A stretch of DNA of 64,000 bases from Asaia bogorensis. GTDB lineage: Bacteria > Pseudomonadota > Alphaproteobacteria > Acetobacterales > Acetobacteraceae. The position numbers and the translations under genes were made by a program. Of this stretch, positions 50,108 to 52,331 are shown piece by piece; the stretch's first letter is position 1; every line of letters starts with the position of its first letter. The stretch is taken from assembly GCF_900465345.1 (NCBI RefSeq), contig NZ_UEGO01000010.1, positions 186,001 through 250,000 of the forward strand, in the 5' to 3' direction. Below the pieces are notes generated by a model that was not told the DNA's origin, ran no database searches, and saw only the letters and a program-made list of their open reading frames with translations.

Positions 50108-50401
50108 ATGGCCGATGCAGTAGAAAAAAAGGGCGAAGGTCTGCTTGATGAAGCCAAGGGCCGTCTGAAGGACGCTGCCGGCGGTCTGACAGGCGATGCC
50201 AAGCTTCAGGCTGAAGGCAAGATCGATCAGCTTTCCGGCATGGCCCAGCAGGAATTCGCAGATCTTTACGACGATGCCGAGACCACTCTGGAAAAGGCGA
50301 CTGCCTTCGTGCAGGACCGCCCGCTTATCTCACTCAGCGTCGCCATTCTGGTCGGCACCATTCTGGGCGCGATTTTCTTCGGACGCTCCAAGAAGAAGTA
50401 A
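50108..50401 (+). CDS. CsbD-like stress protein with C-terminal membrane anchor
   Basis: This 97-residue protein has a CsbD-type N-terminal half (KGEGLLDEAKGRLKDAAGG, then LQAEGKIDQLSGMAQ) and a C-terminal half like ElaB/YqjD: an acidic helix, QDRPLISLSVAILVGTILGAIFFG as a membrane segment, and a basic end RSKKK. The function of CsbD proteins is unknown; they are stress-induced. The ATG at 50108 has AAAGGA 8 bases upstream; the ATG at 50102 is too close to it. It is monocistronic, with its own terminator. Confidence 0.85.
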   Translation: MADAVEKKGEGLLDEAKGRLKDAAGGLTGDAKLQAEGKIDQLSGMAQQEFADLYDDAETTLEKATAFVQDRPLISLSVAILVGTILGAIFFGRSKKK

Positions 50402-50427
50402 GGCTTCAGGGTTCGGCCTGATGGGGG

Positions 50428-50464
50428 AAGGGAGATCGCAGCGATGTGGTCTCCCTTTTGTCAT
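50428..50464 (+). terminator. Intrinsic terminator after the csbD-like gene
   Basis: AAGGGAGA (50428-50435) pairs with TCTCCCTT (50450-50457), with ATC/GAT pairing possible inside, followed by TTGTCATTTT. It isolates the stress gene from rnhB-ccrM. Confidence 0.75.
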
Positions 50465-50479
50465 TTTGCGGGCAAAAAT

Positions 50480-50557
50480 GATTCGCTCACGCATTACAGG
50501 GGTTTACAGCGCGATTCGGGTGATTCAAAAGCGATTCGCAGGACTGTGCGACTCGGG
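50480..50557. promoter_or_regulatory. Cluster of five GANTC methylation sites upstream of rnhB-ccrM
   Basis: GANTC occurs at 50480, 50513, 50522, 50533 and 50550, five sites in 75 bases against an expectation of about 0.3. Three sit in the repeated context GCGAYTCG (50511, 50531, 50548). Directly upstream is a direct repeat TTACAG (50494 and 50504, 10 bases apart). GANTC is the target of CcrM, encoded by the second gene of the operon. Confidence 0.6.
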
Positions 50558-50601
50558 CAGTCTGTCTTGTTTCACGCTGCCAGGGATCATGTAACTGCAC
50601 C

Positions 50602-51243
50602 ATGCCGGACTACACTCTCGAACTTGCCAATGGGGCACCGGAGAAGAGGGTCGCTGGCCTGGACGAGGTGGGCCGTGGCCCGCTTGCTGGACCTGTCATC
50701 GCGGCAGCACTCATGTTTCTCGAGCCGCCCGATGCGGCGCTCTCTATGCTGATCGATGATTCAAAGAAGCTGAGCGCCCGTCGTCGCGAAGCAGCTTATG
50801 CGGCGCTGATCGATCAGCCTTCAGTCCGGATCGGGCTTGGCGCGGCATCGGTGGCTGAAATCGAGCAGATCAATATCGGCAAAGCCTGCCACCTTGCCAT
50901 GCAGCGCGCCCTGACGCATCTCGGTGCCGTTCCAGACCTCGCCCTTGTGGATGGCAATCGCCTGCCTGAGCTGGGCTGCCCTGCCATCGCTGTCATTGGC
51001 GGCGACCGCAAGAGCCTTTCCATTGCCGGGGCATCGATCATCGCCAAGGTCAAGCGGGATCGCCTCATGGCTCGCCTCTCGGAACGCCATAACGCTTATG
51101 GCTGGGAGAAAAATGCGGGCTATGGCACGGCTGTCCATATGGCCGGTCTGCGCGAAGCCGGTGTCACGCCGCATCACCGACGCGATTTTGCCCCTATACG
51201 TGCCCATATTGCGGGTGCCACCCATTCGGCCGGAGCCATCTAA
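50602..51243 (+). CDS. rnhB: Ribonuclease HII
   Basis: This 213-residue enzyme cuts RNA in RNA-DNA hybrids and single ribonucleotides in DNA. The acidic catalytic set is visible: D21 and E22 (GLDEVGRGPLAGP), D117 (LVDGNRLP) and D153 (ASIIAKVKRDRLM). Length is normal. The ATG at 50602 begins MPDYTLEL. Its stop shares a base with the ccrM start (TAATG), a neighbourhood common in alphaproteobacteria. Confidence 0.95.
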   Translation: MPDYTLELANGAPEKRVAGLDEVGRGPLAGPVIAAALMFLEPPDAALSMLIDDSKKLSARRREAAYAALIDQPSVRIGLGAASVAEIEQINIGKACHLAMQRALTHLGAVPDLALVDGNRLPELGCPAIAVIGGDRKSLSIAGASIIAKVKRDRLMARLSERHNAYGWEKNAGYGTAVHMAGLREAGVTPHHRRDFAPIRAHIAGATHSAGAI

Positions 51244-52331
51244 TGCAGGATTTTCCTCTCGATCAGATCCTGTGTGGCGAGTGCATCGACACGATGCGTG
51301 GCCTGCCTGATGCCAGCATTGACTGCATCTTTGCCGATCCGCCGTATAACCTGCAGTTGCGCGGCGAACTGCGCCGCCCGGATGAAAGCGTGGTCGATGG
51401 TGTGGACGATGCTTGGGACAAATTTGCCGATTACGCGACCTACGATAATTTCACGCGTGAATGGCTGACCGAAGCCCGTCGCCTGCTGACCAAGGATGGG
51501 ACGATCTGGGTAATCGGGTCCTATCACAACGTGTTCCGGCTGGGCGCGATCATGCAGGATCTGGGGTTCTGGATCCTGAACGACATCGTCTGGCGCAAGG
51601 CCAATCCTATGCCCAATTTCAGGGGGCGTCGTTTCACCAATGCCCACGAGACCCTGATCTGGGCCGCGCGCGGGCCTGAAAGCAAATATCGCTTCAATTA
51701 TCAGGCAATGAAGGCGCTGAATGATGACATGCAGATGCGCAGCGACTGGTATCTGCCGCTCTGCACCGGCAATGAGCGCCTGCGCAACGCGCACGGGCTG
51801 AAGCTGCATCCGACCCAGAAGCCGGAAAGCCTGCTTCATCGCGTCCTGATTGCGTCCACCATCGTGGATGATATTGTTCTTGATCCGTTCTCGGGTAGCG
51901 GAACGACAGCGGCGATGGCAAAGCGCCTCGGGCGCCGGTTTATCGGTATCGAGCGGCACCCCGACTATATCGAGGCGGCACGCGCCCGTGTCGAAGCCGA
52001 GGTGCGTCTTTCCGACGAGCAACTGGCGATCACCCCGGCCAAGCGCGAGATGCCGCGCGTGCCGTTTGGCAGTTTTGTCGAGCAGGGAGCCTTGCCCGCC
52101 GGGACCGAACTCTTCGACCGCCAGCGTCGTATCAGCGCGATTGTCATGCCCGATGGTAGCCTCGTTTCCGGCTCGCATCGCGGCTCCATTCACAAGATGG
52201 GCGCCTTGCTGACCAACGCCCCATCCTGCAACGGCTGGACGTTCTGGTATTTTGAACGTCAGGGCGAGGTGCTTCAGATTGATATCCTGCGCACCGAAAT
52301 GGCGCAGACGCCCCTGCGTAACGTCGGCTAG
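51243..52331 (+). CDS. ccrM: Cell-cycle DNA adenine methyltransferase CcrM (GANTC)
   Basis: This 362-residue protein is a beta-class N6-adenine methyltransferase with DPPY at 32-35 before the S-adenosylmethionine motif DPFSGSGTT (about 216-224), the order that defines the class. The C-terminal part (about 265-362) is the CcrM-specific DNA-binding extension (PAGTELFDRQRR; SGSHRGSIHKMGALL). CcrM methylates GANTC after replication and sets cell-cycle transcription with GcrA. There is no partner endonuclease, so it is a solitary methyltransferase. It overlaps rnhB by one base and shares its GANTC-rich promoter region. Confidence 0.95.
   Translation: MQDFPLDQILCGECIDTMRGLPDASIDCIFADPPYNLQLRGELRRPDESVVDGVDDAWDKFADYATYDNFTREWLTEARRLLTKDGTIWVIGSYHNVFRLGAIMQDLGFWILNDIVWRKANPMPNFRGRRFTNAHETLIWAARGPESKYRFNYQAMKALNDDMQMRSDWYLPLCTGNERLRNAHGLKLHPTQKPESLLHRVLIASTIVDDIVLDPFSGSGTTAAMAKRLGRRFIGIERHPDYIEAARARVEAEVRLSDEQLAITPAKREMPRVPFGSFVEQGALPAGTELFDRQRRISAIVMPDGSLVSGSHRGSIHKMGALLTNAPSCNGWTFWYFERQGEVLQIDILRTEMAQTPLRNVG

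Follow-up and report, generated by a model that had tools for sequence, protein, structure and literature searches.

The rnhB-ccrM gene pair of Asaia bogorensis is preceded by a closely spaced array of GANTC sites, the predicted target of the methyltransferase that ccrM encodes, and the core of this array is shared by the clade that unites Asaia, Gluconobacter and Bombella. The arrangement is real, conserved and typical of that clade, and comparison of sequences leaves a regulatory function well motivated; ccrM in the Asaia clade can probably sense the methylation made by its own product. How CcrM is timed is a central problem in the cell cycle of alphaproteobacteria, and most of the work on it comes from Caulobacter, in which ccrM is driven by CtrA. 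The Gluconobacter/Asaia clade, tractable and partly industrial, carries spaced CcrM sites inside a promoter-like block with no full CtrA motif. We give an even chance to the proposal that the array is a methylation-gated core promoter of rnhB-ccrM, assisted by GcrA and on when hemimethylated, through which CcrM would feed back on itself.

An array of GANTC sites precedes rnhB-ccrM

In the window (the whole stretch of 64,000 nucleotides that was analysed), positions 50480-50554 hold five GANTC sites in 75 bases, between a terminator-like hairpin and the two genes. The features are as follows.

50426..50459, + strand: terminator-like hairpin after a csbD-like gene, the upstream limit of the promoter region (consensus scan only)
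50480..50484, unstranded: GANTC site 1, distal, TGATTCG (motif count; Asaia comparison)
50513..50517, unstranded: GANTC site 2, or site A, CGATTCG, inside the candidate spacer (motif count; clade alignment)
50522..50526, unstranded: GANTC site 3, or site B, TGATTCA, touching the candidate -10 (motif count; clade alignment)
50533..50537, unstranded: GANTC site 4, or site C, CGATTCG, beside the predicted transcription start (motif count; clade alignment)
50542..50562, + strand: inverted repeat GACTG..CAGTC around site 5, in the predicted leader (sequence; Asaia comparison)
50550..50554, unstranded: GANTC site 5, or site D, CGACTCG, in the predicted leader (motif count; Asaia comparison)
50602..51243, + strand: rnhB, ribonuclease HII (open reading frame and profile matches)
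51243..52331, + strand: ccrM, CcrM-type N6-adenine methyltransferase, overlapping rnhB by one base (open reading frame and profile matches)

The initial annotation had reported five sites within 75 bases, and all five were found, starting on the + strand at positions 50480, 50513, 50522, 50533 and 50550. The three near-identical octamers that it described were also present (GCGATTCG at 50511 and 50531, GCGACTCG at 50548), spaced by 20 and 17 bases. It had further pointed to a repeat of TTACAG, and two copies do lie 10 bases apart at 50494 and 50504. The downstream copy is kept in nine of nine Asaia genomes and in Swaminathania, but the upstream copy is found in just two of the nine, and the repeat is therefore probably due to chance.

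The chance rate of 0.3 sites given at the outset was, if anything, generous. A sample of 433 kb (13% of the 3.38-Mb Asaia genome, partly chosen in that it comprises the window's contig and pieces of two others) contained 719 GANTC, or 1.66 per kb, which gives about 0.12 per 75 bases. Under a Poisson expectation, clusters of five in 75 bases should number 0.005 in this sample and 0.04 genome-wide. The array was the sole cluster of at least four GANTC within 80 bases in the sample, where eight other clusters of three sites were counted and about five were expected. GANTC is depleted in the window, with 95 sites observed against 318 in dinucleotide shuffles, and this general avoidance makes the array stand out more.

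The product of ccrM is predicted to be a CcrM-type methyltransferase acting on GANTC. Its N6_N4_Mtase domain (PF01555) and C-terminal RAMA domain (PF18755) both scored above cut-off, and the CcrM model NF050803 was matched over nearly its full length at 614.9 bits, below its cut-off of 830. The depletion of GANTC in the window is an indirect sign that the enzyme may methylate this sequence. Genome G002 (3198265 bases in one contig) encodes a CcrM 99.7% identical to that of the window. In a further Asaia genome, the ccrM match at G001:C49:214543-215626 (L009, L010) falls into two overlapping pieces in different frames, a frameshift or an assembly error. In G002, G033, G054 and G078, ccrM and dnaA are separated by about 380-700 kb (sizes rounded except for G002), roughly 30-40% of a replichore on the assumption that the origin is at dnaA; G107, which is not in the clade, has them about 0.77 Mb apart round the circle (size rounded).

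Conservation of the array

Within Asaia, sites 2 to 5 keep the same spacing (9, 11 and 17 bases) in nine of nine genomes, that of the window included, and in Swaminathania. Site 1 is in place in seven of the nine, elsewhere in one and missing in one. The inverted repeat around site 5 is likewise found in all nine, with one G-T pair in L003; Swaminathania has a different sequence at this position, GGTCG..CGACC, with the pairing retained. The repeat might serve as an operator or form a hairpin in the leader.

A search of the family found ccrM in 235 of 249 genomes, and upstream DNA was taken for 90 of these 235 (30 loci and 60 stretches) from the listed, better-scoring part. To these were added named genomes, the best 80 of 572 candidates, including Gluconobacter, Neokomagataea, Bombella, Brytella, Komagataeibacter, Gluconacetobacter and Acetobacter. 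The 174 loci with an upstream entry yielded 119 rows in an RnhB tree after removal of 36 without rnhB beside ccrM, six with under 150 bases, 12 with identical upstream DNA and one with a short RnhB. A first grouping of the genomes had been chosen partly by looking at the sites, and group counts were therefore taken from the grouping in the RnhB tree.

In this tree, built from the RnhB protein only, a clade of 45 rows (SH-aLRT 88) includes Asaia, Gluconobacter and Bombella. All 45 rows have at least two GANTC in the 150 bases upstream, and 42 have at least three, leaving three rows with two only. The clade coincides exactly with the set of rows having GATTCA 45-90 bases before rnhB, and its conserved core upstream of rnhB-ccrM can be written as CGANTCG-N2/3-TGATTCANAANCGANTCG. 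The middle site B is occupied in 45 of 45 rows, the first site A in 40 and the third site C in 34; site A is thus missing in five rows, and site C is missing from its place in 11 (nine Bombella-type and two others). Site D occurs at the Asaia spacing in ten rows, the nine Asaia and Swaminathania. With rnhB upstream regions aligned across the family, the sites are kept beyond their flanks on the Asaia-Gluconobacter side; they are present in close relatives, and the original claim stands in this respect. The number five does not carry over as a conserved one: Asaia and Swaminathania keep four sites, and in other lineages the number is three or two and sites have turned over.

The array had also been presented as a feature of acetic acid bacteria at large, and this holds on the Asaia-Gluconobacter side and not beyond it. 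A clade with Komagataeibacter, Gluconacetobacter and Acetobacter has at least four sites in 13 of 16 rows, in layouts that differ from the Asaia-Gluconobacter core. Among the 41 other rows of or near the family, at least three sites were counted in four and zero or one in 31, with none at all in 19. None of the 17 rows from other alphaproteobacteria in the named-genome sample of the RnhB tree had two sites. A survey of the class matched 143 of 193 genomes, from which 87 loci were used and 78 counted, six having no anchor and three being short; upstream of rnhB, 49 of the 78 had no site and one had at least three, one of the 78 loci belonging to the same family.

The 36 ccrM-type rows without an adjoining rnhB were kept outside the group counts; 34 of them had 150 bases upstream, of which 17 had no site and six had at least two. 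Two loci are dense: L158 (Phaeovibrio) has five GANTC 13-112 bases upstream of ccrM, and L165 (a Rhodospirillales MAG, RYN_449), in which rnhB was not found next to ccrM, has six at 16-81 bases, in three pairs 11 apart. These two arrays look independent, and they count against the notion that such arrays are rare elsewhere. As judged from these sequences, acetic acid bacteria proper typically carry a dense array upstream of rnhB-ccrM, but they are not alone in having one at ccrM.

Anatomy of the conserved core

Aligned on site B, the block has the approximate form GG(C/T)TTNCC, followed after a few bases by C-GANTC-G-N2/3-T-GATTC-A-N-A-A-N-C-GANTC-G, with a conserved footprint of about 40 bases. 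Start-to-start distances are 10 bases from A to B (9 in Asaia and Swaminathania) and 11 from B to C, near one helical turn. Because GATTCA served as the alignment anchor, the invariance of its six bases is by construction. The T before GATTCA and the A two after its last A were unanchored, and both are found in 45 of 45 rows; together with the coincidence between the RnhB clade and the anchored set, these columns provide evidence independent of the anchor.

The three sites vary in different ways. Where site A is GANTC, its C and G flanks are kept in 39 of 40 rows and its N takes all four bases; where site C is GANTC, 30 of 34 rows keep the flanks and N is either T or C. By parsimony on a tree of RnhB and CcrM, the fixed GA and TC bases required 1-4 steps each at A, none at B and 1-4 at C, while the N base required six at A and four at C. 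At site C the N changes no oftener than the T of the site, with four steps each. The flanking columns averaged 8.1 steps on the left (25 columns, including the -35-like block) and 11.3 on the right (25 columns). Variation at N with GA-TC and the C/G flanks kept, as seen at site A, is as would be expected of a methylation site in a GcrA-type context, and the flanks and variable N of sites A and C argue for such a site rather than for one fixed protein site.

An ordinary promoter that carries the site of some other regulator, with GATTC in its motif by chance and methylation incidental, would account for site B, which is frozen as TGATTCA in 45 of 45 rows, its N and flanks included (the first T being unanchored). 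We nevertheless regard this explanation as rather unlikely. Site A varies at N and keeps GA-TC, the neighbouring clade retains several sites in other layouts, at least four in 13 of its 16 rows, and repeated retention by chance is improbable because GANTC is avoided in the window.

Three further explanations of the block were rejected. Open reading frames at 50196-50594 and 50444-50752 cross it, and a coding explanation was ruled out because the block has 1-base indels between genera. A search for RNA families returned a single chance match outside the array, scoring 15.8 bits where the gathering score is 50. A plasmid origin was dismissed, as 50400-50601 had no match in the plasmid collection.

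A candidate promoter within the array

Two conserved elements of the block resemble those of a promoter.

50503..50508, + strand: candidate -35, TTTACA (proposed from conservation)
50526..50531, + strand: candidate -10, CAAAAG, 17 bases after the candidate -35 and a weak match to consensus (proposed from conservation)

In the candidate -35, the second T is found in 45 of 45 clade rows and the third T in 42. The -10-like element has the form CANAAN, with C and A at positions 1 and 2 (the A coming from the anchor) and A at position 4 in all 45 rows. Asaia and Swaminathania have the -35 register shifted upstream by one base, which preserves the 17-base gap although their linker is shorter. A scan with the sigma-70 consensus gave no match at the array, so the promoter assignment remains a proposal. 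Transcription starts of Gluconobacter oxydans are described with a lax -10 of nAtnnn (T or C first) and a -35 of ttGnnn, 16-23 bases apart (PMC5756330). The array candidates share with this consensus the A and C of the -10 and the TT of the -35, but have no G at position 3 of the -35 and no T at position 3 of the -10. Transcription is predicted to start at about 50538, which would place site A at -25 to -21, site B at -16 to -12, site C at -5 to -1 and site D at +13 to +17.

It is highly improbable that the array serves the DNA and not a promoter, either as a hypomethylated or protein-occluded landmark or as a site that titrates CcrM. Local hypomethylation of GANTC has been described in other alphaproteobacteria (PMC5172544), in keeping with such a role; however, the distance of the array from the start of rnhB-ccrM varies little, and the promoter-like elements fall within the same footprint.

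GcrA and CtrA

Asaia encodes GcrA at G000:C39:76851-77588. Both ends of the protein match solved GcrA chains, and the match to the family model is split in two by a long intervening stretch. GcrA was found in 94 of 100 family genomes, many of them without the array. The published extended context of GcrA is YGAKTCK (PMC7987155), and by inspection sites 1, 2, 4 and 5 of the window fit it and site 3 (B) does not: CGANTCG always fits on one strand, whereas TGATTCA does not. Under a grouping partly chosen by sites, YGAKTCK was fitted by 98 of 178 clade upstream sites versus 21% of 714 in the Asaia sample, and CGANTCG by 84 of 178 versus 36 of 714. For the GcrA targets of Brevundimonas, no extended motif was found (PMC7987155). 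GcrA is the likely reader of the array.

CtrA is also encoded (G000:C21:291653-292324, 53% identical to a query of approximate sequence), and loss of CtrA as an explanation of the array was ruled out by its presence in Asaia. The full CtrA motif TTAA-N6/7-TTAA, which marks CtrA-driven ccrM promoters of the Caulobacter/Brucella type, was searched as an exact motif and was absent from the 200 bases upstream in every clade row; among upstream regions of the rnhB type (up to 200 bases) it occurred in L053 and L187 only. CtrA gave no match at E 1e-35 in five of 100 family genomes (G037, G042, G082, G085 and G098), three of which are under 95% complete, and a match of only 41% in G048. Involvement of SciP was rejected, with no DUF1153 match in the genome. 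Granulibacter is another acetic acid bacterium. A 2010 survey, which reports no ctrA in this genus, also predicted that genes of the cell cycle have CcrM sites upstream (PMC2877005).

A likely role for GcrA leaves the sign of the feedback to be weighed. Caulobacter GcrA is an activator whose binding is enhanced by methylation, and it is thought to activate methylated promoters with a YGAKTCK-type context (PMC3667746, PMC7987155); the Caulobacter ftsZ promoter seems to reach its highest activity in the fully methylated state (PMC3708114). With site A in the candidate spacer and a weak candidate -10, these observations are consistent with positive feedback, in which GcrA would require methylated A and C sites, methylated DNA would sustain CcrM and unmethylated DNA could not restart it. 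This is the main rival to the hemimethylated-on reading, and we consider it doubtful. Caulobacter ccrM is reported to work the opposite way: a modelling paper that cites other work describes it as transcribed only from the hemimethylated chromosome (PMC2217572). All-or-none loss would also be costly, as several alphaproteobacteria cannot live without the enzyme. By analogy with Caulobacter, we lean towards a promoter that is on when hemimethylated and off when fully methylated.

It is decidedly unlikely that the array forms a natural epigenetic memory switch, in which the promoter would fire only when methylated, via GcrA, both states would perpetuate themselves through division and the number of sites would set cooperativity. 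If true, it would be the natural equivalent of the memory circuits engineered with CcrM.

A proposed model for methylation feedback

The methylation-gated, hemimethylated-on promoter would work as follows: 1) CcrM targets would be built into the promoter, with A in the -35/-10 spacer, B at the upstream edge of the -10, C at the transcription start and, in Asaia, D in the leader; 2) passage of the replication fork would leave the array sites hemimethylated; 3) GcrA and sigma-70 RNA polymerase would use methylated CGANTCG sites to open a promoter with a weak -10; 4) newly made CcrM would remethylate the sites and change promoter output, most likely lowering it, which would close the feedback loop; and 5) with several sites about one turn apart, the response would need more than one methylation event. 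Here we infer the promoter elements, methylation in Asaia, GcrA as the reader and the direction of switching.

Comparison with known systems

None of the open-licence papers among the matches listed described a GANTC array at the ccrM gene of an acetic acid bacterium. The ccrM gene of Caulobacter crescentus has two sites in its leader. The Asaia array resembles that system in having CcrM sites near the start of the enzyme's own gene, where methylation is held to affect transcription (PMC3973325, PMC2217572). Unlike the CtrA-activated Caulobacter promoter, it has three to four regularly spaced sites inside a promoter-like block with no full CtrA motif.

A GANTC between -35 and -10 accompanies a timed group of starts in Caulobacter (PMC4287350), and the ftsZ and mipZ promoters require a CGACTC motif for CcrM-dependent activity (PMC3708114). 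Like the GcrA-dependent mipZ, ftsZ, podJ and ctrA P1 promoters, the array carries CGANTC(G)-type sites in a presumed -35/-10 region. The mipZ promoter has two juxtaposed GANTC sites (PMC3667746). By contrast with all four, the array has three sites about 10-11 bases apart, its target is the methyltransferase itself and its dependence on GcrA is presumed. The closest parallel in logic is with synthetic CcrM memory circuits (PMC5458116), as in both cases the methylation state of a promoter would govern production of CcrM; the synthetic circuits are described with an engineered zinc-finger reader, whereas the Asaia array is natural and its putative reader is GcrA.
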